Positions 37,289 to 52,564 of a DNA stretch of 53,904 nucleotides are shown here, piece after piece. Below the pieces are notes generated by a model, which saw only the letters and a list, made by a program, of their open reading frames with translations, was not told the origin of the DNA and searched no databases. The first letter of the stretch is position 1; each line of letters begins with the position of its first letter. Source of the DNA: an uncultured Opitutaceae bacterium (GTDB lineage Bacteria > Verrucomicrobiota > Verrucomicrobiia > Opitutales > Opitutaceae). The DNA lies in NCBI GenBank assembly GCA_903916755.1, contig CAIWXW010000182.1, positions 1-53,904 on the forward strand, in the 5' to 3' direction. Position numbers and translations under genes: made by a program.

Positions 37289-40276
37289 ATGCCCCACCTG
37301 CCCTTACCCCGTCCCTGGCTGTCGCTGGTCTGTGCCCTGCTGTGCGCCGGCGGGCCGCTGGCCGCGGCGCCCGTCCCGGTGGTCGAGCCCCTTGATTTTT
37401 CGAGCGCCGGCTATGGCGGCGGCGGCGTGCCGCTGCCAGCCGTGCCGGCGCGGTTCACCGTCGCGCCGAGCGGGGGGGACGACACGCGGCTGATCCAGGC
37501 CGCCCTCGATGCCGTGGCGCGGCTGCCGCTTGACACCGAGGGGTTTCGCGGGGCGGTGGCGCTTCAGGCGGGCACCTATCGGCTGGCGGGCCAGCTGCGG
37601 ATCGGGGCCTCCGGCCTTGTCCTGCGCGGCCACGATACGGTGCTGGAGGCGACGGGCCAGTCCCGGCGCACCCTCATCGAGGTGGGGGGCGCGGGCGAGC
37701 CCAAGCGGGGCAAGGCGGTCGCCGTCACCGCCGCGGTCACGCCGGCGGGCGCCACCACGCTCGCCCTGGCCAGCGTGGAAGGACTCGCCCCGGGCCAGCG
37801 CATCTCGGTCCACCGGCCCAGCACGAAGGAGTGGATCGCCGCCTTGGGCATGGACCATTTCGCGGGCAACTACGCGGATATGCGCCTCGACTGGATTCCC
37901 GGGTCGCGCGACGTGGTGTGGGAGCGGACGATCCGGGGCGTCGACCCGGCGGCCCGCACCATCACGCTGGATGCGCCGATCACGACGGCGCTCGAGGCCA
38001 GGTTTGGCGGGGCGCACATCCACCCGCTGTCCTGGCCGGGCCGGATCCGGCACGTGGGCATCGAGGGGCTGACCTGCGTGAGCGATTTCGACGCCGGGCG
38101 CCCCAACGATGAGGAGCATGCTTGGATCGCGATCGCGATCGACCGGGCGGAGGACGCCTGGGTCCGTAACGTCGTCGCCCGGCAGTTCGTTTCGGCCTGC
38201 GTCTGGGTGGGGCATGAGGCCCGTGCGGTCACGGTGCAGGATTGCGCCAACCTGGCGCCGGAGGCCGAATCCGGCTCCTGGCGCCGGCTCGGGTTTTACG
38301 TCGATGGGCAGCAGGTGCTGGTGCTGCGCTGCGCCACCGAGGACGGGCGGCACGATTTTGCGGCCGGCCTGTGCGCGGCGGGCCCCAACGTCTTTCTCGA
38401 TTGCCAGACGACCCGGGCGCAGGTCGACATCGGGCCCTTCGAAAGCTGGGCCAGCGGCGCCCTGTACGACCACCTGACGATCGGCGGGGCGGGCCTCGCA
38501 TTCCTGAACCTCGGCCCGAAGACCCAGGGCGCCGGCTGGACGTCGGCCAACAACGTGGTCTGGAACACGGCGGCGGCCAGCCTCTTCAAGGTGGAGGACG
38601 CTCCGGGCGCCCCCAACCGGATCGTGGTCAATCCGGCCATCCCCTCGCTCTACCGCTCGCAGCTCGCCGGCCGGGCCGGCGCCGCGGCGGTGGCCGCCCT
38701 GGCGCCGGTCGCGCTGCCGGCGGAGCCGGCCGGGCTGGCGGCGTTTGATCCGTCCGCGGTGCCCCCGCCGGTCGTCCGGGCCGCCCGGCCGCTGCGGCTC
38801 GAGCACGGCTATTTTGTGGTGGGCGGCCGGGCCCTGTTCGGCACTTCGATGAGCGCCGCCCTCTGGAAGGGCCAGCTCGTCCCCGGCCGGGAGAAGGAGA
38901 CGGGCACCAGCCCCACGCGCTGGGCCCCCGGGCGCAGCGGTCCGAGCCTGACCGAAGACCTGGATGCCCTCACCGACAAGATGGCGGCGCAGCAGGCCCC
39001 GATCTACTGGGCTTTCCCGGGCCTCTGGTATGACCGGCGCCGCGAGGAGCATCTGATCACCCGTCGCGAGGACGGCGACGCCTATGGCCCCTTCTTCGAG
39101 TCGCCCTGGCGGCGGACGGGGCGGGGCCTGGCCTGGGACGGGCTGAGCCAGTACGACCTGACCCAATACAATCCCTGGTATTTCTCGCGGCTCCGGGAAA
39201 TGGCGGACGACTGCGCGGCGAAGGGCCTGATCTTCGCCTGCCAGCTCTACTGCAACCACAACGTCGAGGAGGCCTCGGCCCACTTCGCGGAATACGCCTG
39301 GCGCACCGCCAACAACGTCAACGCGACCCGCTTCCCCGAGCCGCCGCCCTTTGAGAACGCGGCTCAGAACCGGATCCACATCGCGGACCAGTTCTATGAC
39401 ACGCACAACGCGCAGCTGCGCGACCTGCACGAGCGCTACATCCGGCACACGCTCGACGTCCTGGCGGACTCGCCGAACCTGCTCGTCACCCTGGGCTACC
39501 AGTTCGCGGGCCCGCTGCCGTTCCAGCAGTTCTTCATCGATACCGTGGCGGCCTGGGAGCGGGAGCATGGCCGGCACGTGCGGCTGGTTCTGCAGACGAG
39601 CAAGGCCGTGACGGACGCGATCCTGGCCGATCCCGCGCGGGCGGCTCTGGTCGACGTGATTGACACGCGCTACTGGCAATACCTCGTCGACGGAAAGCTC
39701 TTCGCGCCGGACGGCCTGGGCCTGCTGGCCTTCCGCGAGCTGCGGACGAACGCCTTCGGCCGCGACGCCGCCGTTCCGACGAAGGCCGAATACGTCTATC
39801 GCCAGGTCCGCGAATACCGCGACCGGTTTCCGGACAAGGCCGTCATCACCGGGCAGGGCGGCTTCGGGCCGATCCCGATTTTGATGGCCGGCGGGGCGTC
39901 CTTTGTTTCAGCCGAAGGCGAGGCGGCGCGCGACGGGACGAAGCGCGATGACGAAGCCTTTGTGCGATTTGTGGCCCGGAACCTCGCGGGTGACCTGCCG
40001 CGGATGAAGCCGATCGACGGCCTGGCAGCCGACGCCTGGTGCTTCGGCGAAGAAGGGCGGCGGTTGCTGGTGTATTCGCCGAGCGGCGAGGCGATCCAGC
40101 TCACGCGTGATCCGCATCTGGCCCAGGCGATCGCGCTCTGGTTCAACCCGCGCACGGGCCAGACCCAGCCGGCGCGGACCGCTGACGGCCTGAAATTCAC
40201 GAAGCCGTCCGGCGAGGCCTGGCTCCTGTGGCTCAACCGCAGCCTGCCGACACCGCCGCCGGTGGCGGCGCTTTAG
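37289..40276 (+). CDS. Exported two-domain protein: pectate-lyase-3-type beta-helix plus DUF6298-like TIM-barrel/GH140-like half
   Basis: 995 residues with a Sec signal (LSLVCALLCAGGPLAAAP). Residues about 30-470 start with the FTVAPSGGDDTRLIQAALDAV motif of pectate-lyase-3 type right-handed beta-helices and continue with coil repeats (VRNVVARQFVSACVWVG, VTVQDCANLAPE). Residues about 505-880 appear to be a TIM barrel with a family-like QAPIYWAFPGLWYDRRREEH and DLTQYNPWYFSRLREMADDC. The C-terminal about 90 residues (LLVYSPSGEAIQL, ALWFNPRTGQTQ) resemble the collagen-binding-like beta domain that ends GH140 enzymes. I place it near DUF6298 proteins, seen in polysaccharide loci. The likely target is rhamnogalacturonan, but activity is unknown. 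Confidence 0.7.
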   Translation: MPHLPLPRPWLSLVCALLCAGGPLAAAPVPVVEPLDFSSAGYGGGGVPLPAVPARFTVAPSGGDDTRLIQAALDAVARLPLDTEGFRGAVALQAGTYRLAGQLRIGASGLVLRGHDTVLEATGQSRRTLIEVGGAGEPKRGKAVAVTAAVTPAGATTLALASVEGLAPGQRISVHRPSTKEWIAALGMDHFAGNYADMRLDWIPGSRDVVWERTIRGVDPAARTITLDAPITTALEARFGGAHIHPLSWPGRIRHVGIEGLTCVSDFDAGRPNDEEHAWIAIAIDRAEDAWVRNVVARQFVSACVWVGHEARAVTVQDCANLAPEAESGSWRRLGFYVDGQQVLVLRCATEDGRHDFAAGLCAAGPNVFLDCQTTRAQVDIGPFESWASGALYDHLTIGGAGLAFLNLGPKTQGAGWTSANNVVWNTAAASLFKVEDAPGAPNRIVVNPAIPSLYRSQLAGRAGAAAVAALAPVALPAEPAGLAAFDPSAVPPPVVRAARPLRLEHGYFVVGGRALFGTSMSAALWKGQLVPGREKETGTSPTRWAPGRSGPSLTEDLDALTDKMAAQQAPIYWAFPGLWYDRRREEHLITRREDGDAYGPFFESPWRRTGRGLAWDGLSQYDLTQYNPWYFSRLREMADDCAAKGLIFACQLYCNHNVEEASAHFAEYAWRTANNVNATRFPEPPPFENAAQNRIHIADQFYDTHNAQLRDLHERYIRHTLDVLADSPNLLVTLGYQFAGPLPFQQFFIDTVAAWEREHGRHVRLVLQTSKAVTDAILADPARAALVDVIDTRYWQYLVDGKLFAPDGLGLLAFRELRTNAFGRDAAVPTKAEYVYRQVREYRDRFPDKAVITGQGGFGPIPILMAGGASFVSAEGEAARDGTKRDDEAFVRFVARNLAGDLPRMKPIDGLAADAWCFGEEGRRLLVYSPSGEAIQLTRDPHLAQAIALWFNPRTGQTQPARTADGLKFTKPSGEAWLLWLNRSLPTPPPVAAL

Positions 40277-40529: not shown

Positions 40530-41501
40530 TCAGGAGGGCTGGTTCGAAGCCCGCTTGACCCACTTGTAGGCCGCCACCGAATTCTTCCAGAAGTATTTCT
40601 CGGCGGCCGCGCGGGACTTGGTCGAGAAATACTCCCGCACCAGGGCCACCGTGTCCGGCACCTCGGAGACCCCGACGCAGTTTGGCCAGTCGCTGCCAAA
40701 CAGCACCCGGTCCTCCCCGAAGGTGCCCATCAGGCTGTCGAGTCGGTCGCGGTGCGCCGCGAGGCCCGGCGTGATCGGGCCGCCCGGGCGGAGCGGATGA
40801 ACGATTTCCGACAGCTTGGTGTAGATCTGGGCCCGGGGCGCGAGCTCCTTCAGGACCGCGTCGTACTCGGCCTGGTTGGCCGGGGTCGGGTCGAATGAGG
40901 GCAGGTGGTCGATTACGATCCGCAGGTCCGGCACCTGGTCGCTGATCTTGACCACGGCCTGAAGGAGATCGATTCGCGGATTGGCCGTGTCGAGCACCAG
41001 GTCGTGCTGGGCCAGGAGCTTCAGCCCGGCGATGAAGGTCGGGTTGTCCGCCTGGGTCGTGATGGCGTAGCCCCAGTTGTTGCCGTAGCGGATGCCGCGG
41101 AAGAGGGGGTTCTTGGCGTAGCGGCCCAGATAGTCGGCGAATTCCGGCTTCTCCGGCTGCAGATTGCCCACGGTGCCGACCATGATCGACTCCGGCTGGA
41201 TCGTCTCCAGCACCCAGAGGTTGTCCTCGACCCAGGGGCTCGCGTCGATTTCCAGGGCGCCGACGATCCCGAGGTCCCGGGCGAAGGTGGCGTACATCGC
41301 CGGCGACGCCACGCCGCCGGGAAACTGGCGGCCCCCCTTGTAGGGCGCCCCCTGCGGACGGGTGCCATCGAAGAGATGGATGTGGGTGTCGATGATCGGG
41401 ATGTCATCGCGGGCCGTCGCCGCGCGCAGGGCGCGGGGCAGGGCGGCCGCGGCGAGCACGCTGCCGAGGAACTGGCGGCGGGAGAAACTGCGTTCGATCA
41501 C
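40530..41501 (-). CDS. Tat-exported amidohydrolase-2 family protein (sugar lactonase type)
   Basis: 323 residues from GTG 41501; the nearest in-frame ATG lies far upstream inside the DapA-like gene. The Tat signal RSFSRRQFLGSVLAAAALP starts the protein. The PF04909 TIM barrel has DTHIHLFD (His40, His42), later IDHLPSF and the metal-site FGSDWPN near the C-terminus. PF04909 members include L-fuconolactonase, L-rhamnono-lactonase and galactarolactone isomerase, all opening or rearranging sugar lactones. It is the last gene of a three-gene operon (14 bp after the DapA-like gene) whose other enzymes handle sugar acids, so a lactonase or lactone isomerase role is likely. Export is unusual for this step. 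Confidence 0.82.
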   Translation of the reverse strand: MIERSFSRRQFLGSVLAAAALPRALRAATARDDIPIIDTHIHLFDGTRPQGAPYKGGRQFPGGVASPAMYATFARDLGIVGALEIDASPWVEDNLWVLETIQPESIMVGTVGNLQPEKPEFADYLGRYAKNPLFRGIRYGNNWGYAITTQADNPTFIAGLKLLAQHDLVLDTANPRIDLLQAVVKISDQVPDLRIVIDHLPSFDPTPANQAEYDAVLKELAPRAQIYTKLSEIVHPLRPGGPITPGLAAHRDRLDSLMGTFGEDRVLFGSDWPNCVGVSEVPDTVALVREYFSTKSRAAAEKYFWKNSVAAYKWVKRASNQPS

Positions 41502-41515
41502 TGTGGCGCGGCGGC

Positions 41516-42577
41516 TCAGGCCCGGAGGTAGGGCTTGAGATAGGTATCCAGCGCGGCGCGAACGCCGGCGTCGTCCAGCTTGATGCCGCGCGTGACCGGG
41601 CCGGCGGCGGCCGCGCTCATGGAGATGTTCTTGCGGAAGCGGGTGTCCTCCTTGAAGACGCCGCGGGCGATCATGATGCGGTTCTGGTCCGCCATGCCGA
41701 GGCTGTCGAAGGCGAGGATGTGGCCGAACATGACGAACGCCTCCTGGCGCCGATCCGCGTGCCACAGATCGTAGGCCTGCGCGTAGATGTCGGCGACACT
41801 CGGATAGGGGCAATGGCCGAGGACCCCGCGCTCCATCTCCGTGATCATGGTCTTGACGCCCTGGCCCGAGAAGACGACGAGCTCGTCGTTGGTCCGGCGG
41901 CGAAGCTCGCGGACGCGGTCCTGCGGGATGCCCGCCTCGTCCTTCACGTGCTTCATCGTCGGGATCGTTTTCGTCATCTCGACCAGCAGGTCGATGCTCA
42001 TGGTTCCGGTCGCCTGGGCAAACAGCGGCAGGTCGGTGAGGGCGCCCACCTGCTGATAGTAGGCGAGGAGCGCCTTCTCGTCTGTCACCTTGGCCGGCGG
42101 CAGCGATATGATCGCGTCGGCGCCGTTCTTGGCGGCGTGGGCGGCGTACCGGCCGACCTCGGCCATGTCCTTGCCCTGGACGCCGATCACGACGGCGGCG
42201 TTGCCGCCCTTGGCGGTGGAGATCAGGGCCTCCGCGCCCGCCATCCGCTCGTCCTCGCGCAGGGCCGCCCAGTTGCTGGCGAGCTGCGGCCACATCAGGC
42301 CATGGACGCCGCCGCGGTTGCAGAAGGTGATCTGCGCCGCCAGCGAATCGAGATCGAGCTTGTCGTCGGGGGTGAAGGGCGACCCGGCGATGGGAAACAG
42401 GCCCTTGAGCTCGCGCGGCTTCTGCCGGGGCACCGGCTGGGCCGCGGCGTCGCTCTGGGCCTTGGCGCCGCGGACGGCGAGGGCGAGGCCGAGGGCGCCG
42501 GTGCCGAGGGCCTGCAGGAACTGGCGGCGGGGCAGGACGGGGGAGGAAACGGAGGCGGGGACTTTGGTCATGGTCAT
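41516..42577 (-). CDS. Tat-exported DapA-superfamily lyase (sugar-acid aldolase/dehydratase type)
   Basis: 353 residues with a Tat signal (PRRQFLQALGTGALGLALAV, residues about 16-35, then cleavage near AKA-QS). The (beta/alpha)8 barrel has the Schiff-base Lys212 in MKHVKDEAG. The usual GTTGE loop is replaced by QLASN (98-102), and the usual YN-x-P motif by LPLFAQ (183-188), so the catalytic Tyr of dihydrodipicolinate synthase is missing. Members of this superfamily include KDG aldolase, 5-dehydro-4-deoxyglucarate dehydratase (KdgD) and KDF-type aldolases. By context it should act on the 2-keto-3-deoxy acid made by the enolase-superfamily gene next door (50 bp upstream). The changed motifs make the exact reaction uncertain. 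Confidence 0.8.
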   Translation of the reverse strand: MTMTKVPASVSSPVLPRRQFLQALGTGALGLALAVRGAKAQSDAAAQPVPRQKPRELKGLFPIAGSPFTPDDKLDLDSLAAQITFCNRGGVHGLMWPQLASNWAALREDERMAGAEALISTAKGGNAAVVIGVQGKDMAEVGRYAAHAAKNGADAIISLPPAKVTDEKALLAYYQQVGALTDLPLFAQATGTMSIDLLVEMTKTIPTMKHVKDEAGIPQDRVRELRRRTNDELVVFSGQGVKTMITEMERGVLGHCPYPSVADIYAQAYDLWHADRRQEAFVMFGHILAFDSLGMADQNRIMIARGVFKEDTRFRKNISMSAAAAGPVTRGIKLDDAGVRAALDTYLKPYLRA

Positions 42578-42627
42578 GGTTCTGGGTGCGCCGACCGGGG
42601 CCGGCGCGGGTTCAGGAAGAGGTGAGG

Positions 42628-43947
42628 TTAGCGGTCGATCCGGACCAGCATCTTGTCGAGGGCGTCGCGATTCAGGCTGACACCCAGGCCGGGGCCCTTC
42701 ATGGCCTCGACGTAGCCGTCCGCGTTGATCCGGAACTTCTCGTTGAGGTAGGGCCGGTCCGTCAGGGTCGGGGGATAGGGCATCTCGAACCAGAAGGTGT
42801 TCGGGAGCGCCAGTTCGAGCTGGAAGTGAACCGCGAGGTCGAAGCCGTTGCCCCAGTTGTGGGGGGTGCAGGGCATGCCGAAGGCGTCGGCCAGCTGGCC
42901 GACCCGGAAGCCGCCGCTGATGCCGCCGACATTGTCGGAGATCAGGCGGACGATATCGAGGGCGCCGCGGCGGATGTACTCGGCGTAGCCCTGGATGCTG
43001 TAGACGAATTCGCCCACCTCGATCGGGATGGTGAGCTTCTGCCGCAGCTCGATCAGGCCTTCGATGTCGCTGGTCGGGATCGGATCCTCGAAGGAGTAAT
43101 AGTTGTATTCTTCCAGCGCCCGGCCGACCCGGAGCGCCTCAAAGACGTTGTACTGCTGGACCGGATCGAACAGCAGGGTGAACTCCGGCCCGACGGCCTC
43201 GCGGACGGTCCTGATCTCCTCGATGTGACCGACATGCGCCGGGATCGGTCCGCCGCTCGGATGCTGGCCCGGGCCGGGGTGGATCTTGTAGCACTTGAAG
43301 CCCATCTTCTTGGCCTCGAGCGCCTGGGGCGCGAATTCCTCGAGGGTGGGCAGGTGCAGCGAGCTCCCGTAGGCCAGCATCCGCTCCTTGGTCCCGCCGA
43401 GCAGCTTGTAGATCGGGCGGTTGACCGCCTTGCCCACGATGTCCCACAGGCAGACGTCGATGATGGCCGCGTGATAGTTGGTCTCCTCGATGCTCCCCAG
43501 ATGAATCCCGTTCGGATAGCCGAAGCCGCCCACGAAGCCGCCGCTGCGGCCGAGCGCCCGGGTCGGGTGGACGCGGGCGTTCATCCCGGCCGTGAGCGAG
43601 GGGAGGAGGTCGACGACGCTCTTCCCGAGGCAGAGGCCCTTGGCGTATTCCAGCCACCCCGTCCCCGGGACGCGGTTGCCGATCGTATAGTTGCCCTCGA
43701 TTCCGCTCGCCGTGACGATGGAGACGATCTCGCCGCTTTCCGGGCTGTTGATCCGGCGCATGCTCGAGCCCAGATTGGTGACGTAGATCTTCACCTCCGT
43801 GATGGTGAGGTCGGGCAGGTCCCGCGGCTTGATGCCCACCGCCTCGGCCGCCAGGCGGGCCGGGCTGATGAGTCCGGAGGCGCCGACGAGCGCCCCCAGG
43901 GTCGAGGCGCCGAGGAAGTCACGGCGGGAGAATTGGCGATTGGTCAT
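42628..43947 (-). CDS. Tat-exported enolase-superfamily (mandelate racemase-type) sugar-acid dehydratase
   Basis: 439 residues from ATG 43947, where the Tat motif NRQFSRRDFLGASTLGA begins. N-terminal capping domain (about 45-180) plus the modified barrel with metal ligands Asp261 (LLFDPVQQY), Glu287 (SFEDPIP) and Glu313 (VGEFVYS). The base candidates are Lys221 (KCYKIHPGPG), Asp338 (RLISDN) and His363 (TPHNWGNG). This Lys plus His-Asp arrangement is that of mandelate racemase-group acid-sugar dehydratases and cycloisomerases. The first metal ligand is followed by PV instead of the usual AN. It is the first gene of the leftward operon, probably dehydrating an aldonate/aldarate, or isomerising a lactone as galactarolactone cycloisomerase does. 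Confidence 0.85.
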   Translation of the reverse strand: MTNRQFSRRDFLGASTLGALVGASGLISPARLAAEAVGIKPRDLPDLTITEVKIYVTNLGSSMRRINSPESGEIVSIVTASGIEGNYTIGNRVPGTGWLEYAKGLCLGKSVVDLLPSLTAGMNARVHPTRALGRSGGFVGGFGYPNGIHLGSIEETNYHAAIIDVCLWDIVGKAVNRPIYKLLGGTKERMLAYGSSLHLPTLEEFAPQALEAKKMGFKCYKIHPGPGQHPSGGPIPAHVGHIEEIRTVREAVGPEFTLLFDPVQQYNVFEALRVGRALEEYNYYSFEDPIPTSDIEGLIELRQKLTIPIEVGEFVYSIQGYAEYIRRGALDIVRLISDNVGGISGGFRVGQLADAFGMPCTPHNWGNGFDLAVHFQLELALPNTFWFEMPYPPTLTDRPYLNEKFRINADGYVEAMKGPGLGVSLNRDALDKMLVRIDR

Positions 43948-44266
43948 AGGGTAGGGGCGATGGAATTGAACATTAAGGTCTCGTGTCCGCTGGGGGTCCA
44001 CCGTGCGCCGGGCCGCGCCGCGCCGGCGCGATTCGCATTCACGGCGTGAACGCGGTCAGGACACTTTCGCAATGTGGGGCCCATTGGATGCAGTCTCGGT
44101 AAGAGCGGTATTCTGACGCACGGCGCAGGTCAAGGTACCATTGAAAATTAAAAAAATCTTCGCCCGCGCGACGGCGTCTTGTTCTTAGTTCTTGGGTTTG
44201 CCGGTGGGATCACTTTGCTCGTGGCGCCCTGCGTCCGTTCTGACCCGCCAGCCCCGAGTCGTTCCT
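43948..44266. promoter_or_regulatory. Divergent promoter region of the two sugar-acid operons
   Basis: 319 bp with no gene, between the start codons of the enolase-superfamily gene (minus) and the MFS gene (plus). It holds a conspicuous AT-rich patch (about 44141-44161, including TTGAAAATTAAAAAAATC) in otherwise GC-rich DNA and a GC-rich inverted repeat near 44016-44036 (CGCCGG ... CCGGCG). No clear -10/-35 pair or operator could be assigned. An in-frame ATG at 44192 could extend the MFS gene by 25 codons, but they are not membrane-like. Confidence 0.45.
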
Positions 44267-45577
44267 ATGCCCCCTGTTTCGCCTGCGACCGTTGATTCGT
44301 CTCCGCCCACCCGCGCCCGCCATTGGGTCGTCGTGTTCGCGGCCGCGCTGGCGGTCATCACCTACGTGGACCGGACCTGCATGTCGCAGGCCAAGGTCTC
44401 GATCGCGGCCGACCTGCACCTGAGCAGCGTCCAGATGGGCTATGTGTTCGCGGCCTTCACGTTCGCCTACTCGCTGTTCGAGATCCCGGGCGGCTGGCTG
44501 GGGGACCTGATCGGCCCGCGCAAGGTGCTGATGCGGGTGGTCCTGATCTGGTCCTTCTTCACCGCGGCGACCGGCCGGGTCTGGAATCTCCTCTCGCTCC
44601 TCGTGACGCAGTTTCTCTTCGGCGTGGGCGAGGCCGGCGCCTTCCCCAACCTGGCCAAGGCCTTCACCCAGTGGCTCCCGGTGCGCGAGCGGAACCGGGC
44701 GGTCAGCATCATGTGGCTGTGCACCCGCTGGGGCGGGGCGGTCACGCCGCTGGCGGTCGTCTGGGTGATCTCGCTGGTGGGCTGGCGCTGGGCCTTCGCC
44801 GTCTTCGCCATCCCCGGTCTGGTCTGGGCGGGCCTCTTCTACTTCTGGTTCCGCGACCACCCGCGCGACCATCCGGGCGTCAACGCGGCGGAACTCGCGC
44901 TGCTGAACGAGGGCCGGGCGCCGGCGACCCCGCGGCCGCGGGTGCCCTGGGCGCGGATCCTCCGCACCCGCACCGTCTGGCTCCTCTTCATCCAGTATTT
45001 CTGCTTCGGGTACGGCTGGTACTTCTACATCACCTGGCTGCCGACCTACGTGAAGGAGGCGCGCGGGCTCGACCTGCACAAGGGCGCCCTCCTGTCCGGC
45101 CTGCCGCTCTTCTTCGGCGGCTTTGCGTGCCTGCTCTCGGGCTGGCTGGCCGGCTGGCTGGTGCGGAGGGGCTGCCGCCTCGCGAACGTGCGCCGCGGGC
45201 TGGCCTATGTCGGCTATGGCGGCGCGGCCGCCATGCTGCTCCTGTCGCCCCGGGTGGACGACCCGGTCTGGGCGATGATCGCCATGGGGGTCGCCAGCTT
45301 CTTCCTCGATCTGACGCTGCCGGTCTGCTGGCGCACGGCGATGGACGTCGGCGGCAAGTACGCGGGCACGATCTCGGGCACCATGAACATGGCCGGCCAG
45401 CTGGGCGGCGCCCTCGGGCCCATCGTGGTCGGCTACATCCTCCAGTACATGAACCACAACTGGACGCTGACCTTTGCGATCTCCGCCGCGATCAACGTGG
45501 TCGGCGGGATCTGCTGGGTGTGGATCGATCCCGTTTCGCCGGTCGAGGCGATCGACGCCGCGCCGCTGGCCGCCTAG
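44267..45577 (+). CDS. MFS transporter, anion:cation symporter family (sugar-acid uptake)
   Basis: 436 residues, 12 spans. TM1 has AVITYVDRTCMSQAKVSIAAD, followed by FAYSLFEIPGGWLGD and FGVGEAGAFPNLAKAFTQWL, the signature of galactonate, hexuronate and glucarate permeases. The start at 44267 was chosen because the charged N-terminus and TM1 then have normal lengths. It is the first gene of a tight operon (14 bp to the PQQ dehydrogenase) and is divergent from the enolase-superfamily operon. It probably imports the sugar-acid product of the exported enzymes, or uronates released from pectin. Confidence 0.88.
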   Translation: MPPVSPATVDSSPPTRARHWVVVFAAALAVITYVDRTCMSQAKVSIAADLHLSSVQMGYVFAAFTFAYSLFEIPGGWLGDLIGPRKVLMRVVLIWSFFTAATGRVWNLLSLLVTQFLFGVGEAGAFPNLAKAFTQWLPVRERNRAVSIMWLCTRWGGAVTPLAVVWVISLVGWRWAFAVFAIPGLVWAGLFYFWFRDHPRDHPGVNAAELALLNEGRAPATPRPRVPWARILRTRTVWLLFIQYFCFGYGWYFYITWLPTYVKEARGLDLHKGALLSGLPLFFGGFACLLSGWLAGWLVRRGCRLANVRRGLAYVGYGGAAAMLLLSPRVDDPVWAMIAMGVASFFLDLTLPVCWRTAMDVGGKYAGTISGTMNMAGQLGGALGPIVVGYILQYMNHNWTLTFAISAAINVVGGICWVWIDPVSPVEAIDAAPLAA

Positions 45578-45591
45578 GACCCTTTCTTCCC

Positions 45592-47952
45592 ATGCCGCTC
45601 CGTCCTCCTGTATCGCGTGCAAACTCCTCCGGGCCGATCCGGGCGCTGCAAGGCGCCCTGGTCGCCGCGCTCGGCCTGGCCGCGGCCCGCGCCTCCGCGC
45701 AGGGCGGAGGCGGCCTGCCGCCGCCGCCCCGGCAATTCGCGGCCATCTGCGCCCTCTGCCATGGCAACGACGCCCGCGGCACCGACCGGGCGCCCTCGCT
45801 GATCGACAGTCCCCAGCTGCGCAGCCTCACGGAGGCCGACATCGGGCTGATCATCTCCAAGGGCAAGAACAAGATGCCCGCGTTCCCGCTGCCGGCGCCC
45901 GACATCGCGGAGCTCGCGCATTTCATCCACGGGCTCAATTCCACCGAGGCGCAGGGCGCGGTGGCGGGCGACCCGCGGGCGGGGGAGCGGATCTTCTTCG
46001 GCGCGGGCCAGTGCGCGACCTGCCACAGCGCGGGCGGCCGCGGCAGCGACCTGGGCCCCGACCTTTCCGATGTGGGCCGCCGGATGAAGGTCGCCGACCT
46101 GAGGCGGTCGCTGGCCGACCCGGGCGCGCGGATCACGCCGGGCTACGACCGCATGACGGTCACCTTGAACGACGGCACCACCCTGACGGGCTTCGCCCGC
46201 GGGGTCGGCAGCCACGATGTCGTGCTGCAGACCGACGACGGGAAGCTCCACGTCCTGACCGATTCCGATTACAGCGCGCGGACGATTGATCCGAAGCCGG
46301 CGATGCCGGCGTTTGCGGGCACGGCCGCCGAGCAGCGTGATCTTCTCGCCTACCTCAGCCGCCTCGCCGGGGTGGGGATCGGCCCGCGGACCGAAGCCCA
46401 GGAGCCCGTGGCCCCGGCGGCGATCGAGGCCGTGCTGCATCCCCGGCTGGGCGAGTGGCCGACCTACAACGGCCGGCTGGATGGCAACCGCCACAGTCCG
46501 CTCGACCAGATCAACCTGCAGAATGCCGCCCGGCTCCAGCTGCAATGGACCTATCCGATCCCGTTCGCCGGCCTGGAAACGACGCCCGTGGTGGTTGATG
46601 GGATCATGTACGTGACCGGCAACAACCAGGTCTACGCGCTCAGCGCCCGGACCGGCCGCGAGATCTGGAAGTACGAGCGGCCGAAGAGCGTGGGGGCGAA
46701 GATCTCCAGCGATGCCGCAATCGGCGTGAACCGCGGCGTCGCCGTCCTGGGCGACCGGATCTTCTACCTGACCGACGATGCCCGCCTGCTGGCGCTCGAC
46801 CGGCTGACCGGGGCGATCCGCTGGGAGGTTTATTCGTATAACAAGGGCGACCCGGGCTTCTACGGCGGCACGTCCGCGCCCCTGGTCATGGGCGACCTGG
46901 TCATCACCGGCGAGAGCGGCGGCGACAACGGCATCCGCGGCTTCGTGGCGGCGTTCAAGGCGACCACCGGCGAGCTCGTCTGGAAGCTGTGGACGATTCC
47001 CGAAGTGGGCCGGGCGGGCCCCGGCTCGGACACCTGGAAGGGCAACGCCCTGTCCGAGGGCGGCGGCGCCACCTGGCTCACCGGCAGCGCCGACGTCGCG
47101 GCGAACGTGCTCTATTGGTCGGTGGGCAATCCCCACCCGGATACCAATGGCGACGACCGCGCGGGCACCAATCTCTACACCAACAGCGACGTCGCGATCG
47201 ACTTCAAGACGGGCAAGATGCTGTGGTACTACCAGTACACCCCGCACGACCTGCACGACTGGGACGCCAACCAGCCGATCGTCCTGGTGGACGGCCCGTG
47301 GCGGGGCCGGGACCGCAAGCTCCTGCTCCACGCCAACCGCAACGGTTTCCTTTACGTCCTCGACCGCACGACCGGGACCCCCCTCCTCGCCACCCAGATG
47401 GTGAAAAAGATGACCTGGGCCAGCGGGATCGACCCGGCGACCTGGACGCCGCAATTGCTGCCGAATAACGAGACCACCCTGCAGGGCGTGCAAACGGGAC
47501 CGGCGGTGCGCGGGGCGACCAACTGGTATTCCACCGCGTACAGCCCGCTGACGCACCTGTACTACGTGATGACGGTGGAGGATTACACCCTCTACCGGAA
47601 AGCGGATGACGGGGGCTACGGCCGCTACAATAATCCCGGCGATCCGGCGCAGAAGATCCTCCGGGCCTTCGACATCGAGACCGGGAAGGTGGCCTGGCAG
47701 ATCGACCTGCCGGGCGCGGTTCAGCTCAACTACGCGGGCGTCATGTCCACGGCGGGTGGCGTGCTCTTCTTTGGCGAGAGCAGCGGCGCCTTCGCCGCGG
47801 TCGACGCGCGCACGGGCAAGTACCTCTGGCATTTCGAGACGAACCACCCGATGAAGGGCTCGCCGATGACGTACTTGGTGAACGGCCGCCAGTATGTCGC
47901 GATCGCCGCCGGCGCCAACATCCTGTCCTTCGCGCTGCCGGAGAATCCGTAG
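45592..47952 (+). CDS. PQQ-dependent dehydrogenase with two N-terminal cytochrome c domains
   Basis: 786 residues. After a signal peptide (ALVAALGLAAARASAQ) come two heme c sites: CALCH (Cys53, Cys56, His57) and CATCH (Cys141, Cys144, His145). The second lies in a Pirellula/Verrucomicrobium-type heme domain (DLGPDLSDVGRRMKVADLRR, LNDGTTLTGF). Residues about 285-786 are the eight-bladed PQQ propeller of type-I quinoprotein alcohol dehydrogenases: GNPHPDTNGDDRAGTNLYTNS and PHDLHDWDANQP, the latter with the catalytic Asp. The vicinal Cys pair typical of methanol/ethanol dehydrogenases is Ala375-Ala376 here. It should oxidise a sugar or alcohol in the periplasm and pass electrons through its own hemes. 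Second gene of the rightward operon. Confidence 0.88.
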   Translation: MPLRPPVSRANSSGPIRALQGALVAALGLAAARASAQGGGGLPPPPRQFAAICALCHGNDARGTDRAPSLIDSPQLRSLTEADIGLIISKGKNKMPAFPLPAPDIAELAHFIHGLNSTEAQGAVAGDPRAGERIFFGAGQCATCHSAGGRGSDLGPDLSDVGRRMKVADLRRSLADPGARITPGYDRMTVTLNDGTTLTGFARGVGSHDVVLQTDDGKLHVLTDSDYSARTIDPKPAMPAFAGTAAEQRDLLAYLSRLAGVGIGPRTEAQEPVAPAAIEAVLHPRLGEWPTYNGRLDGNRHSPLDQINLQNAARLQLQWTYPIPFAGLETTPVVVDGIMYVTGNNQVYALSARTGREIWKYERPKSVGAKISSDAAIGVNRGVAVLGDRIFYLTDDARLLALDRLTGAIRWEVYSYNKGDPGFYGGTSAPLVMGDLVITGESGGDNGIRGFVAAFKATTGELVWKLWTIPEVGRAGPGSDTWKGNALSEGGGATWLTGSADVAANVLYWSVGNPHPDTNGDDRAGTNLYTNSDVAIDFKTGKMLWYYQYTPHDLHDWDANQPIVLVDGPWRGRDRKLLLHANRNGFLYVLDRTTGTPLLATQMVKKMTWASGIDPATWTPQLLPNNETTLQGVQTGPAVRGATNWYSTAYSPLTHLYYVMTVEDYTLYRKADDGGYGRYNNPGDPAQKILRAFDIETGKVAWQIDLPGAVQLNYAGVMSTAGGVLFFGESSGAFAAVDARTGKYLWHFETNHPMKGSPMTYLVNGRQYVAIAAGANILSFALPENP

Positions 47953-47973
47953 GCCCCGAAGCCAACCCCACCG

Positions 47974-49506
47974 ATGACCCGCACCGACGACATTCCGCTG
48001 TCCCGCCGCGACTTCGTTCGCGCCGCTTCCCTTGCCGCCACGGCGGTTTCCACCGGGCTGGGCCTGCCCGCGGCGCAGGCCCAGACGGCCCCGTCGCCCG
48101 CCGGGCCGCCCCTGGTGGGATTCCAGGCGGAGGTCCCGTATATCATCGAGTACGGCATCGACCGGTTCCTCGATGACATCCAGGCGCGGGCCAGCGTGAA
48201 CACGCTCTTTCTCTTCAGCAGTCCCTTCGGGCCCGATGCCCAGGGCAACTTTGTGACCGCGCATCCGCAGTATTACAGCGACGTCGGCATGAAGGCCCAG
48301 GGGCTCGGCCCGCAGAGCCTCAACCTGCCGGACGCGATGGCGAAGATCACGGCGGCGACCCGCCGCCGGGGGATGAAGATCTATTCCTGGATGATCGAGG
48401 ACAACCGGCCCCCCCTGAAGATCAGGGGCATGGACCGCCTCTACGAGATCGACCTGCACGGGCGCCGGGTGGGGCCCCATCCGGGCGGTCCCTGTCTCAA
48501 CAATCCGTATTTCCGCAACCTGATCGCGGGCGCGGTCGAGGATTCCATCCGCTCCTACGACGTCGACGGGCTGCAGCGCGGCTCGGAGCGGCAGGGCCCG
48601 CTCAGCAACGCGCTTGGCGCCTGGCACCACGGCTCGACCAGCGATCCCGGCCGCACTTCCTGCTTCTGCGACTATTGCACGACCAAGGCCCGCGCCCGGG
48701 GCATCGATATCGTCCGGGTAAAGCAGGGGTTCATGGCCCTGGAGACCTATGTGCGGGCCGGCCGCGCCGGCCAGCGGCCCCGGGACGGCTACTACGTGGA
48801 ATTCTGGCGGCTCCTCCTGCGGCATCCCGAGCTGCTGACCTGGCAGACTTTCTGGTCCGACAGCATGCGGGAGATGCAGCGTGAGTTCTATGCCCAGGCC
48901 AAGGCGATCCGGCCGGGGCTGCCGGTCGGCTTCCACATCTGGCACAACACCGCCTTCAACCCCATCTTCCGGGCGGAGCAGGACTACCAGCCCTACACGG
49001 CCTACGCGGATTTCCTGAAGCCGGTGGTCTACGACAATCCGGCCGCCGAGCGGATGACCTCCTACGTCTATAGCGTGTCGCAAAACATCTATGGCGACCT
49101 GAGCCGCCAGCAGCTGCTGGATTTTGAGTACAGCGTCATGAATTTCAAGGAGGACACCTACGATCAGATCATCAACGAGCCGCGGGCGACCTATGAGGCC
49201 GACCTGCGCAGCCTGGGGATGAACGACACGCCGAAGGGAAGGTTCGGGCGGTTTTCGGCCGACTACGTCTATCGCGAGACCAAGCGGGCGGTGGATGCGG
49301 TCGCCGGTTCGAAGACCACCATCTGCGCGGGCGTGGGCATCGACGTGGTGGTCAAGAACAGCACCCCGGAGAGCGTCCGGGGCGCGGTGGAGGCGGTGTT
49401 CCGCGCCGGCGCCACCGGCCTGGTCCTGTCCACCAGCCACGCGGCCATGCGGCCGGAAAATCTGAGCGCCGTCGGGTCCACCCTGCGCGAACTCAAGCTC
49501 GCCTGA
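47974..49506 (+). CDS. Tat-exported TIM-barrel glycoside-hydrolase-like protein of unknown substrate
   Basis: 510 residues with a strong Tat signal (PLSRRDFVRAASLAATAVST). The barrel contains features of hypothetical glycosyl-hydrolase (GHL) families: RRRGMKIYSWMIED near strand 3, an acidic YDVDGLQRGSERQGPL segment (about 195-210), and a Cys230-x-Cys232-x2-Cys235 cluster (SCFCDYCTTKA) like the metal/structural cysteines of beta-galactosidase-type barrels. GATGLVLSTSHAAMRPENL ends the barrel. I cannot assign catalytic residues or a substrate. Its place in the PQQ operon (21 bp after the dehydrogenase, 22 bp before the cupin) suggests it acts on the same sugar. Confidence 0.72.
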   Translation: MTRTDDIPLSRRDFVRAASLAATAVSTGLGLPAAQAQTAPSPAGPPLVGFQAEVPYIIEYGIDRFLDDIQARASVNTLFLFSSPFGPDAQGNFVTAHPQYYSDVGMKAQGLGPQSLNLPDAMAKITAATRRRGMKIYSWMIEDNRPPLKIRGMDRLYEIDLHGRRVGPHPGGPCLNNPYFRNLIAGAVEDSIRSYDVDGLQRGSERQGPLSNALGAWHHGSTSDPGRTSCFCDYCTTKARARGIDIVRVKQGFMALETYVRAGRAGQRPRDGYYVEFWRLLLRHPELLTWQTFWSDSMREMQREFYAQAKAIRPGLPVGFHIWHNTAFNPIFRAEQDYQPYTAYADFLKPVVYDNPAAERMTSYVYSVSQNIYGDLSRQQLLDFEYSVMNFKEDTYDQIINEPRATYEADLRSLGMNDTPKGRFGRFSADYVYRETKRAVDAVAGSKTTICAGVGIDVVVKNSTPESVRGAVEAVFRAGATGLVLSTSHAAMRPENLSAVGSTLRELKLA

Positions 49507-49528
49507 TCGCCCTTTCGCCTTCCTCCCC

Positions 49529-49996
49529 ATGAAACCCCGCCGCTCCCTCCTCCTCCTCCTCCTCGCCCTCGCCGCCGCCCTCGTCCATCCCGCCCAGGCC
49601 GCGGACCGGCCGCCCCTTGGCCCGCCCCCGAAGGACGTGGTCTACTTCGACCATGAGAAGGTGGACGCCACCTTCGTCAAGGGCACCGCCCTCCTGCTCA
49701 ACAACGTTTACAAGGCTTACGCCGCCCGCCGCGACCATCCGGGTCCGGTCGAGATTCACCAAGTCGACACGGATCTCTTCTACGTCGTCGACGGCGCGGT
49801 GACCTTTGTGACGGGCGGGACCGCCGTGGATCCAAAGCCGATCGGACCGAACGAGATTCACGCCACGTCGATCACCGGCGGCACGCCCCATCACCTGACC
49901 AAGGGGGACGTGATCATCATCCCCAAGGGCGTCCCGCACCAGTTCACCGCGGTGGACAGCCCCTTCCGCTACCTCCTGATCAAAGTGAAGGAGTGA
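49529..49996 (+). CDS. Exported single-domain cupin
   Basis: 155 residues with a Sec signal (SLLLLLLALAAALVHPAQA). The double-psi beta-barrel motifs are EIHQVDTDLFYVVDGAVTFVTGG (cupin motif 1, His/Asp/Tyr region) and GDVIIIPKGVPHQF (motif 2, His of PHQF). Only about half of the classical metal-ligand pattern is visible. Small exported cupins beside sugar-oxidation genes could bind or isomerise sugars or lactones, but the reaction is not evident. Last gene of the rightward operon. Its final 17 bases overlap the end of the convergent pectinesterase-like gene. Confidence 0.8.
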   Translation: MKPRRSLLLLLLALAAALVHPAQAADRPPLGPPPKDVVYFDHEKVDATFVKGTALLLNNVYKAYAARRDHPGPVEIHQVDTDLFYVVDGAVTFVTGGTAVDPKPIGPNEIHATSITGGTPHHLTKGDVIIIPKGVPHQFTAVDSPFRYLLIKVKE

Positions 49997-52439
49997 GGCC
50001 CGGGCTGCTCCCGGCGCCGCCGGGAGCAGGGGACGGGCTAGGACGGGCCAGCCCGTGCGGGTAGGAGACCTCGATCCGGCTGTAGACATTGCTGCTGCCG
50101 CGGGGCCAGGCGACCCCGGCGCCGCCAAAGAGGTTGGGCACGATCGTGCCCTCGAGCTTGAGCGTCTCCTGGTCCGTGTCATTGGTCGCGCGGACCCGCA
50201 GGATCGTCCCGCTGACGGTCAGGAGCATCCGGGTGTTCGGCTTGAACACGCCGCTCAGCACCTGATGGCCGTCGAGCGGGGACCCGACGCCGTGGTCGAT
50301 GCGGTAGAGCTGGAACATGCATTGGGCGGCGGACTGCGTCGTGCGCCAGAAGCGCAGGGCGTAGCCGCTCTGCGTGCGGGGATCGTACGCGATGTAGATA
50401 TCCGCATGCAGATTCCGCGTGCCGGTGTCGGCGGGCGACCCCGGCACGGAAAACCCCGTGCCCTCGGTCTTCTCGGGGGTCATGGTCAGCCGGACCTGCA
50501 TGTCGTGGCACTGCGCGTCCTGCTGGAAGAGCAGGGACGCCGGGGTGGAGGGGCGGATGCCATAGCCATTCTCCAGGCCCGGGGCCGGCACAATCGTCCA
50601 GGTTCCCCGCACCGTCCACAGGCCATTCACGTAGGCGGGCGAGGGGTCGGGGACAAAATTCCTGAAATTGGGCGACTCGAGCAGCGAATCGAGATCCGTC
50701 GCGGCGACGGCCTGGGCGGAGACCGCGGCCAGCGCGGGTCCCGGGTCCGACAGGTTGTGCTTGGGGGCGACCGTGGCCTCGAGGTATTTGCCCACGTAAC
50801 CCGCCGTCAGCCGAATTTCCCGGGCCGGCTCGCCGGCCCGGCTGACCGCGATCGCCCGGGGGTTCGCGCCCGCCGCATCGTCGCAGAGGAACCAGGAGAC
50901 GAGGGACTGGTCCTGCTTCTGGCCCAGATCGAGCCGGTAGGAAACCTTGATCTTCCCGTGGAGCGGGGACTCCACCTGCGGTGGCTTCGTGAAGGCCGGC
51001 GGCGCGAGGTACCTGGGTTCGACGTAGACATATGCCGTCACGAAGGTGCCGTTCGACGCCGTGGCGTTGATCGGCACCCAGGCCGCGGCGGCGGTCGTGT
51101 TGGCGCCCCGGACCGCGAGCCGCCCGCCGGGGGAGGGGACCAGCTCGACCAGGTGCGACGGCGTCGACCACGTTATGCCCGGCGCCGGGCCGCGCGGGGG
51201 CATGACGGTTGCGGTCAAGGTGACGCCCGCCGCGCCGGTCCGGAGGGACGGGGATCCGCCCTTCAGGGCGATCCGGAATGGCAGGTCGCCCTGAAGGGCG
51301 GCCTCGTACCGGGCGCGCACGCCCGCCGGATCCCAGTTGTCGGGCGGCCCGCTGAGCGGCGCCCGCAGGAGGTTCCAAGGATTGTAGGCGAGGCGCTCCG
51401 CTTCGGACATCTCGCGCGAATAGGTGAACGCCGGCGGCCCGACCGTGGCGTCGGCGACCGCCGCCGCCCGTCCGTTTTCATCGTGGTTGTGGTAGGTGAG
51501 GGTGAGCTGGCTCGGCCGCGGCGCGGCGACGCCGCGCACCCAGGCGACGCGGCCGCGGGGCGAACTGTCGGGCAGGATGCAGTCGATGAGGACGTCCGGG
51601 CGCTCGGCGCTGCGGAACTCGGCCTTGTAGAGCTGCATGCCGCGCTCGGCCATGAACCGGCAGCGGATGAAGACAATGCCGGAGGCCGACATCACCCCCC
51701 GGCCGGTCGGGAAGACGAGCGTGCTGTCCTCCCAGACGCTGATCTGGCCGCCGCCCATCCAGTCGTCCGTCCCCTCGATGTAGACGTTCTTAAAATACGA
51801 TCGCGCCGTCCGCAGGAACAGGGTGTCGAGCCGCCCCAGGATGGCCACGTTCTCGTAGGTGTGCTTGTCGCCTTCGGGCAGGAGCGCCACGCCCTGGGTG
51901 ATGACGTCCGAGCGCTTTTTCAGGTTCTTGCGGGGGTCGCCGGGGTATTCGTAGTCTTCGTTGCAGTAATTGATGATGGTCAGGTTCCGGGCGGTGAAGC
52001 CGGTCGCATTGACCTCCAGGATGAAGGCGTCGTCGTCCGCGCCCTGCATCAGGCCCCGGTTGTCCGCCAGCACGACCGCGCGCCGGTTGTTGGTCAGGCC
52101 CAGGAGGGTGATATAGTCCTTGCTGATCAGGAGACTCGGACCGCGCGGGCCGCGGCCGGGGAGCGGGTAGACGTTCGGCCGGATGCCGATGACCGTGGGC
52201 CGGGCGGCCGTGCCGGCGGGAGCCGCGGCGCAGGCCGCCTGCAGGGTCTTGAACTGCTTCGCCGCCGGGTTGTCCTGCGCCAGATTGCCGTCGACCAGGT
52301 AGTCGTAGGTGAGCTTGGCCGGGTCGATCGAGCGGTCGATCGGCTCCTCGCTGCCGCGGACGTTGTCCTGCGCCCGCAAGGGGAGGGCGCCGGCGACCAC
52401 GGCAGCCAGGGCGAGCGCGAGCACAGGGGTGGTCTTCAT
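49980..52439 (-). CDS. Exported pectinesterase-like protein with long C-terminal extension
   Basis: 819 residues from ATG 52439, where a Sec signal begins (MKTTPVLALALAAVVAGALP). Residues about 35-320 form a right-handed beta-helix of pectin methylesterase type: FKTLQAACAAAP, GRLDTLFLRTARSYFKNVYI (Asp205 in the QDTL-like motif) and EGTDDWMGGG where plant and bacterial enzymes have DFIFG (catalytic Asp225 or 226). The LGRPW motif is not clear, so activity is plausible but unproven. About 380 further residues hold Ig-like segments (VTLTATVMPPRG, ITWSTPSHLVEL) and a laminin-G/concanavalin-like sandwich (NLHADIYIAYDPRTQSGYAL), perhaps for carbohydrate binding. The C-terminus is Pro/Ser/Gly-rich and overlaps the cupin gene's 3' end. 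Confidence 0.75.
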   Translation of the reverse strand: MKTTPVLALALAAVVAGALPLRAQDNVRGSEEPIDRSIDPAKLTYDYLVDGNLAQDNPAAKQFKTLQAACAAAPAGTAARPTVIGIRPNVYPLPGRGPRGPSLLISKDYITLLGLTNNRRAVVLADNRGLMQGADDDAFILEVNATGFTARNLTIINYCNEDYEYPGDPRKNLKKRSDVITQGVALLPEGDKHTYENVAILGRLDTLFLRTARSYFKNVYIEGTDDWMGGGQISVWEDSTLVFPTGRGVMSASGIVFIRCRFMAERGMQLYKAEFRSAERPDVLIDCILPDSSPRGRVAWVRGVAAPRPSQLTLTYHNHDENGRAAAVADATVGPPAFTYSREMSEAERLAYNPWNLLRAPLSGPPDNWDPAGVRARYEAALQGDLPFRIALKGGSPSLRTGAAGVTLTATVMPPRGPAPGITWSTPSHLVELVPSPGGRLAVRGANTTAAAAWVPINATASNGTFVTAYVYVEPRYLAPPAFTKPPQVESPLHGKIKVSYRLDLGQKQDQSLVSWFLCDDAAGANPRAIAVSRAGEPAREIRLTAGYVGKYLEATVAPKHNLSDPGPALAAVSAQAVAATDLDSLLESPNFRNFVPDPSPAYVNGLWTVRGTWTIVPAPGLENGYGIRPSTPASLLFQQDAQCHDMQVRLTMTPEKTEGTGFSVPGSPADTGTRNLHADIYIAYDPRTQSGYALRFWRTTQSAAQCMFQLYRIDHGVGSPLDGHQVLSGVFKPNTRMLLTVSGTILRVRATNDTDQETLKLEGTIVPNLFGGAGVAWPRGSSNVYSRIEVSYPHGLARPSPSPAPGGAGSSPGLTPSL
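50005..50029 (+). terminator. Strong stem-loop just after the cupin stop, inside the 3' end of the pectinesterase-like gene
   Basis: CTGCTCCCGGC, loop GCC, GCCGGGAGCAG: a perfect 11-bp stem starting 8 bp after the cupin stop (49996). There is no T tract on the plus strand. It is also coding for the Pro/Gly/Ala-rich C-terminus of the convergent protein. Confidence 0.45.
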
Positions 52440-52564
52440 GGGGTGCCCGACCTTCGGCCCGGGAAGCGAAACGGGCAATCCTAACTGCCGCCCGCCCGGG
52501 CGCGGCCGTGCGCGAGGGTCGCCGCTGACCCGCTCACGCATGCCCCGGTCGGGCGGCGGAACGC

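Follow-up and report, generated by a model that had tools for sequence, protein, structure and literature searches.

A patchily distributed gene cassette for proposed quinoprotein-linked sugar-acid chemistry with predicted exported dehydratases in an uncultured Opitutaceae bacterium

Seven intact genes form two divergent operons

The DNA analyzed here (the window) is the whole of contig CAIWXW010000182.1, or C182, of an uncultured Opitutaceae bacterium (GenBank assembly GCA_903916755.1), with a length of 53,904 bp; the host draft genome comprises 3.35 Mb in 227 contigs and is 93% complete. Between positions 40530 and 49996 lie seven intact genes, arranged as two tight divergent operons with intra-operon gaps of 14 to 50 bp, which encode a quinoprotein dehydrogenase, an amidohydrolase, an enolase-superfamily protein, a DapA-like protein, a permease of the major facilitator superfamily (MFS), a TIM-barrel protein and a cupin. 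To the extent that sequence allows a judgment, the conserved cassette with its exported sugar-acid dehydratases is real, and we see an about even chance that this cassette, patchy and shared across phyla, carries out a linear periplasmic oxidation and dehydration of a sugar.

An earlier reading of the locus, made from the sequence alone, had placed these genes and described the divergent layout, both of which were borne out. Its family calls were likewise recovered with Pfam (Amidohydro_2, DHDPS, MR_MLE_C, MFS_1, a pyrroloquinoline quinone (PQQ) propeller with cytochrome c, and Cupin_2). It had further proposed a promoter region of 319 bp shared by both operons; the length is correct, and a simple scan of this stretch yielded neither a sigma-70-type promoter nor an intrinsic terminator. 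In the following list, Tat denotes twin-arginine translocation.

40530..41501, minus strand: amidohydrolase-2 (lactonase-type), GTG start, Tat motif SRRQFLG, PF04909 at 2.6e-30
41516..42577, minus strand: DapA-like protein, DHDPS at 2.4e-13, Tat motif PRRQFLQ, signature of an L-2-keto-3-deoxyarabonate-dehydratase-type active site
42628..43947, minus strand: enolase-superfamily protein of the mandelate-racemase type, MR_MLE_C at 7.9e-51, Tat motif SRRDFLG
43948..44266, no strand: 319 bp separating the divergent operons, from the enolase start at 43947 to the MFS start at 44267
44267..45577, plus strand: MFS permease, MFS_1 at 9.1e-61, nearest model D-galactonate transporter
45592..47952, plus strand: quinoprotein dehydrogenase, PQQ propeller at 3.1e-85, two N-terminal cytochrome c domains
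47974..49506, plus strand: TIM-barrel protein, predicted Tat-exported, TIGR01409, probably glycoside-hydrolase-like
49529..49996, plus strand: small cupin, predicted Sec-type exported, Cupin_2 at 4.9e-10, hydrophobic N-terminus

Cassette enzymes carry conserved Tat signals

A scan of genome contigs for DapA-like genes returned 77 loci. From the window and 75 of these loci, 81 DapA-like rows (80 besides the window) were aligned; because the split gene of locus L119 contributes two pieces, the rows represent 80 genes. The scan patterns covered the barrel and so did not select for an export signal; the query alignment, however, was built from Tat-bearing proteins. The N-termini of the DapA-like protein (17.1), the enolase-superfamily protein (25.0) and the TIM-barrel protein (22.7) all passed the NCBIfam model TIGR01409 (cut-off 16.7), while none of four negative controls (the cupin, the quinoprotein, the MFS permease and the genome's own DapA) gave a Tat match in TIGR01409 or the Pfam library. 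TatC is encoded in the host genome (187.8 bits, above cut-off).

Both arginines were aligned in all 80 DapA-like genes, in 23 of 24 enolase rows and in 8 of 10 amidohydrolase rows, the remaining rows being gaps. Among 26 further DHDPS proteins from relatives only the one in L013 had a Tat-like motif, and none of the seven DHDPS proteins encoded beside the cassette did; the product of L068:4132-5265, which has a Tat-like motif and no DHDPS pattern, lies outside the count of seven. A simple Tat regular expression also matched 61 of the remaining 431 genes at these loci and detected only 68 of the 80 DapA-like rows. Because this pattern is unspecific and misses true cases, the Tat call rests on the alignment and the curated models. 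Chance motifs were tested with the negative controls and the DHDPS comparison sets and rejected. The export of the cassette enzymes predicted from these signals is well supported, and the export signals that the sequence-only reading had assigned to the carbon-skeleton enzymes are likewise supported.

The DapA-like protein has a dehydratase-type active-site signature

In the alignment, Gln replaces the aldolase Tyr in all 80 DapA-like genes, and both the Schiff-base Lys and a Glu two residues on (Lys-x-Glu) are kept in 79 of 80, the exception being the broken L119 gene. The genome's own DapA has Tyr at that position and Lys-Glu without the spacer residue, and the seven cytosolic DHDPS neighbors of the cassette keep GSTGE and YNIP, i.e. 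the aldolase pattern. According to the available text of a study of L-2-keto-3-deoxyarabonate (L-KDA) dehydratase (PMC9795676), Lys171, Glu173 and Gln143 are features of that enzyme, and Glu173 is not conserved in other enzymes of the DHDPS/N-acetylneuraminate lyase (NAL) family. A profile search returned L-KDA dehydratase (PDB 7c0c) as the clear top match (2e-28). A fold search with a structure model of high confidence (pLDDT 93) also placed this enzyme first (7c0d, 6.3e-17, against 1.9e-16 for N-acetylneuraminate lyase 5c55), with a small lead in TM score (0.78 versus 0.77). The DapA-like protein thus carries the signature of an L-KDA-dehydratase-type active site, from which a dehydratase activity is predicted. 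The sequence-only reading had likened it to the lyase KdgD, an assignment that fell away: the KdgD model TIGR03249 gave 34.3 bits against a cut-off of 373.95, and with the aldolase tyrosine replaced by Gln we rejected both KdgD and an aldolase as its identity.

The catalytic residues of the other two carbon-skeleton enzymes were also found intact. In the enolase alignment, made up of the window and 23 of the 32 hits at 40% identity or above, the K and H of the KxH motif, the D, E and E, and the Asp were kept in 24 of 24 rows and the dyad His in 23; we take these to be the Lys on strand 2, the three metal-binding acids and the Asp-His dyad. The protein missed the cut-offs for gluconate/galactonate dehydratase (140.5 of 750 bits) and talarate/galactarate dehydratase (116.3 of 500 bits). 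For the amidohydrolase, D38/H40/H42, H199, K229 and D271 were kept in nine of ten rows, and the tenth is a gap that presumably arises from the two halves of a split gene in L055. Its only NCBIfam match at E 0.001 was L-fucono-1,5-lactonase (NF052480), below cut-off at 59.1 of 400 bits. The MFS permease reached 249 bits with the D-galactonate transporter model TIGR00893, below the cut-off of 395.

The quinoprotein retains its catalytic and haem motifs

The window quinoprotein has two CxxCH motifs in two cytochrome c domains. Fourteen rows were compared, the window plus the 13 hits (of 15) whose frames exceed 550 residues; the catalytic Asp and a D-x-D motif were invariant among them, and the two haem motifs were present in 11. 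The D-x-D motif aligned with that of XoxF (6dam and 6zcv). In the available text of PMC11996626 this motif is treated as a sign of lanthanide use and is also reported in the E. coli-type membrane glucose dehydrogenase, so that it is a hint of lanthanide use and no proof. The protein missed TIGR03075 (PQQ-dependent dehydrogenase, methanol/ethanol family) with 415.6 of 480.05 bits. The curated model that scored best for the quinoprotein domain was TIGR04528; the window protein lies below its cut-off, with the two cytochrome domains outside the matched stretch.

A second quinoprotein with 69% identity is encoded in the same genome (L044:2799-8953, contig C6), beside a Tat-type enolase-superfamily protein that lacks KxH and a GH28 protein.

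The cassette is patchy and spans phyla

By record label, 73 of the 77 loci come from metagenome-assembled genomes (MAGs), L060 and L071 from a peat-soil MAG and L130 from an uncultured planctomycete, the label of L123 being silent on this. The carriers are thus uncultured bacteria of soil and water from two or more phyla. The labels are mainly Acidobacteriota and Verrucomicrobiota, with two Pseudomonadota and one each of Bacteroidota, Actinomycetota and planctomycetes; loci in the DapA-like alignment are mostly Acidobacteriota and Opitutae. Some loci carry overlapping names: L054 is the G029 locus L039-L040, L055 is L041 (G035), L088 is L042 and L114 is L045.

The sequence-only reading had named a conserved neighborhood as a test, and linkage was indeed found across phyla. 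In 36 of 76 loci an enolase match is no more than 1.5 kb away from the DapA-like gene; widening the distance to 10 kb raises this only to 38, and in 33 of 76 the match lies within 500 bp on the same strand. The neighbor control is weak, consisting of 26 loci of about 3.5 kb from other genomes, two of which had an enolase match, and it is a fair comparison only at 1.5 kb. Within 10 kb of the DapA-like gene, a quinoprotein was found in 14 of 76 loci and an amidohydrolase in nine. The DapA-like, enolase and quinoprotein genes occur together at 40% identity or above in 6 of 77 loci. L067 and L080, from another phylum, are collinear, with the amidohydrolase gene diverging from DHDPS-BMC-quinoprotein-enolase-DapA-like, and the order quinoprotein-enolase-DapA-like is found in two phyla (L067 and L080, and L057). 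In the Bacteroidota locus L126 all four enzymes are present at 25-31% identity.

At the genome level, DapA-like matches of at least 45% identity were confined to G000, G029 and G035 among 57 genomes (own genome included) and occurred in none of 12 genomes of the same genus; the cassette is therefore patchy. Because genes were detected with blastp and a good number of the contigs are short, these absences are soft. In a tree of DapA-like proteins the window clusters with four sequences from Opitutae, nested in a broader group in which both phyla occur; the tree is midpoint-rooted only and therefore is no proof of transfer.

A putative periplasmic oxidation and dehydration pathway

Computation shows that export signals are present, that linkage and catalytic residues are conserved, and which kind of active site the DapA-like protein has. 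We infer from this that the four enzymes would act on one substrate in the following order. The quinoprotein would oxidize an aldose at C1 and pass electrons to the respiratory chain through its own two cytochrome c domains, and the lactone would be opened by the Tat-exported amidohydrolase. The Tat-exported enolase-superfamily enzyme would then dehydrate the sugar acid to a 2-keto-3-deoxy acid, from which a second water would be removed by the Tat-exported Schiff-base enzyme of the L-KDA dehydratase type. A product or intermediate would be imported by the MFS permease of the galactonate-transporter kind. The sugar would stem from plant cell-wall or algal polysaccharide degraded by nearby enzymes. 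The more far-reaching proposal of the sequence-only reading, a complete pathway in the periplasm from which only the end product is imported, may be extended as follows: the whole non-phosphorylating route would run outside the cytoplasm, with a lanthanide-type quinoprotein that relies on scavenged PQQ and with nothing imported but a keto-acid or semialdehyde, and would be spread over Acidobacteriota, Verrucomicrobiota and a few other phyla, having gone unseen because its hosts are uncultured. We put this extended form forward tentatively.

Several observations weigh against a single linear pathway. All four enzyme genes stand together at 40% identity or above only in the window and in three of the 77 loci (L055, L067 and L080); the L055 amidohydrolase is split over two frames, and that of G029 sits on a different contig from its other cassette parts. 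None of the cassette enzymes reached a substrate-specific NCBIfam cut-off. The position equivalent to Glu200, the second catalytic base of L-KDA dehydratase, varies among the DapA-like genes, so that these enzymes may act on another substrate or complete the reaction differently. The host genome also encodes UxaC and, adjacent to its gene, a UxaE-like protein and an HpcH/HpaI aldolase, which argues for a cytosolic galacturonate route and weakens galacturonate as the substrate of the cassette. The cassette might instead supply separate periplasmic accessory enzymes, each acting on a different acid or lactone from pectin-like polysaccharides and encoded side by side because they are co-induced, an explanation that we regard as rather unlikely. 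No detectable enolase gene within 10 kb in 38 of 76 loci, no quinoprotein in 62 of 76, the second quinoprotein beside a KxH-less Tat enolase and a GH28 protein, and nearby aldo/keto reductases with Tat-like N-termini all agree with it, but the close same-strand enolase gene in 33 of 76 loci and the quinoprotein-enolase-DapA-like order in two phyla speak against it.

The entry step is also affected. The NCBIfam model nearest to the quinoprotein is TIGR04528 ('acido-empty-quinoprotein group A', 460.7 bits, cut-off 650); the neighboring Cys-Cys pair seen in five aligned PDB chains is absent in all 14 rows, window included; PqqE was above cut-off in none of the 57 genomes, nor in any of 14 control genomes; and PqqC gave no match in a search that is uninformative, since the controls gave none either. 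The sequence-only reading had called this protein a PQQ dehydrogenase: the PQQ propeller and two cytochrome c domains stand, and the PQQ label is conditional because of the model's name and the PqqE result. These data would suit a quinoprotein that works without PQQ and is not the entry enzyme, in which case external aldonates or lactones would be dehydrated by the exported enolase-superfamily and DapA-like enzymes and then imported. We consider this unlikely, as the score lies below the TIGR04528 cut-off, and all 14 rows keep the catalytic Asp and D-x-D and 11 keep both haem motifs. Moreover, PQQ uptake from outside by soil bacteria without synthesis is mentioned as an option in the available text of PMC10875860, and it would reconcile the D-x-D motif with the lack of PqqE matches above cut-off and with the empty-quinoprotein match. 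In the proposed pathway the quinoprotein would carry PQQ. Concerning export, the window amidohydrolase had no TIGR01409 match and stayed below the Pfam TAT_signal cut-off (17.7, cut-off 22.7), which none of the four N-termini (amidohydrolase, DapA-like, enolase and TIM) reached; the L080 DapA-like N-terminus scored 15.3 in TIGR01409, slightly below 16.7; and only 3 of 16 enolase hits below 40% identity had a Tat motif near the match start, many matches starting inside the protein. Of the three Tat enzymes claimed by the sequence-only reading, the DapA-like and enolase proteins thus pass TIGR01409, the amidohydrolase does so only by way of its G029 relative (82% identity, 20.3), and the TIM protein is added as a fourth candidate. 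That the three enzymes are cytoplasmic, with twin arginines by chance and an ordinary non-phosphorylating pathway, is extremely improbable given the passing scores of the DapA-like and enolase N-termini and the arginine pair in 80 of 80 DapA-like genes, compared with one of 26 other DHDPS proteins and none of the seven beside the cassette.

Candidate substrates

Genes near the cassettes point to plant or algal polysaccharides. They include a PcRGLX-type gene (a type that we take to be PL26) with GH88 (L041), two alpha-L-fucosidases (L040) and GH28 (L044 and L080). Among 96 other neighbor proteins from the 25 loci with an enolase of at least 40% identity, the 25 of 113 families listed were led by DHDPS (seven), BMC (six) and GFO_IDH_MocA (five), and they also included GH28 (two), GH88 (two) and UxaC (one). 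In the window itself, the polysaccharide-breakdown genes around the cassette encode a DUF6298 protein (37289-40276), a pectinesterase-family protein at 49980-52442 (30.9 bits, cut-off 27) and a member of the oligogalacturonate-lyase family, truncated at its start by the contig end (54.8 bits, cut-off 30). The top model names (L-fuconolactonase, gluconate/galactonate dehydratase and D-galactonate transporter) all scored far below cut-off, and these scores lean towards aldonates as the substrate class. Galacturonate as a proven substrate was set aside in view of the UxaC, UxaE-like and HpcH/HpaI genes of the genome, despite the pectin genes beside the cassette; L-fucose, L-rhamnose, D-galactose and L-arabinose seem as likely.

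Relation to known systems

Sugar-acid enzymes of the enolase superfamily and the DHDPS family are generally cytoplasmic. This holds for hexuronate oxidation in Agrobacterium, a cytoplasmic, NAD-dependent route of uronate dehydrogenase, galactarolactone isomerase, galactarolactone cycloisomerase and KdgD, three of whose four steps draw on the same superfamilies as the cassette (amidohydrolase, enolase and DHDPS/NAL). In contrast to that route, the oxidant in the window is a quinoprotein, Tat signals mark the other enzymes, and the KdgD cut-off is missed by the DapA-like protein, in which the aldolase tyrosine is lacking. With the L-KDA dehydratase of the Weimberg-type L-arabinose pathway (Azospirillum, 7c0c) the DapA-like protein shares the Schiff-base Lys, the Gln-for-Tyr exchange and Lys-x-Glu, whereas it is only about 19% identical, is predicted to be Tat-exported and has no Glu200 equivalent. 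An exported quinoprotein with cytochromes also underlies periplasmic PQQ oxidation of the Pseudomonas PedE/PedH type, and the D-x-D motif is as in XoxF 6dam and 6zcv. In PQQ dehydrogenase systems such as PedE/PedH and those of Gluconobacter, oxidation is periplasmic and dehydration follows inside the cell, whereas in the window cassette the dehydratases too carry export signals. Among the open-access matches listed, no title or opening line of an abstract deals with a DapA/enolase pair that is exported or with dehydratases forming a periplasmic pathway. If the proposed pathway is true, some uncultured soil bacteria would draw electrons for respiration from sugars and convert these ahead of uptake, with no phosphorylation; a function could be assigned to one quinoprotein of these lineages, and a link between lanthanides and sugar metabolism would become testable.

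TIM-barrel protein, cupin and neighboring genes

The TIM-barrel protein, listed among the encoded proteins by the sequence-only reading, is probably a glycoside-hydrolase-type barrel and not a pathway step. It had no Pfam or NCBIfam match at E 0.001, and a Foldseek search with its model (pLDDT 71) gave Cwp19, GH42 and PgaB as best hits at a TM score of about 0.5; a role as sugar-acid enzyme was rejected on this fold result, modest though the model quality is. It was matched in 7 of 57 genomes and had no blastp match in the 77 related loci, and the cupin was found in 3 of 76; neither was retained as a core part of the cassette. Cupins beside a quinoprotein show 48-53% identity in L085 and L092 and 43% in L084. 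The TIM family has a CFCxxC motif, with six matching places in the host genome, among them L149 with three consecutive genes, and a copy in L152 adjoins a PL22-like gene.

In two phyla the cassette is repeatedly flanked by a pair of genes, the first for an aldolase-type DHDPS that lacks an export signal and the second for a BMC-domain protein of microcompartment shells (L067:4618-6248, L080:4179-5959, L054:4870-6551, L056:3701-5403, L069:8243-9948 and L075:2956-4646); the genome of the window itself gave no BMC family match. Near the cassette there are also aldo/keto reductases whose N-termini are Tat-like, at L041:7000-8130 and L056:634-1722 (assigned by Pfam) and at L056:11962-13107 (same cluster), and the motif is present in all five genes of this cluster, although the family is usually cytoplasmic. 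Twelve loci encode a beta-propeller-like protein of about 440 residues (e.g. L085:1595-2908, L092:8685-9974, L054:14097-15458 and L057:4468-5799), of which the one member scanned had no Pfam match above cut-off; its gene adjoins the Tat DapA-like gene in four of five loci viewed, the exception being L094. In the window, the gene at 37289-40276 encodes a DUF6298 protein of 995 residues with a signal-like start and, as read from its sequence, a beta-helix-like N-terminal part.

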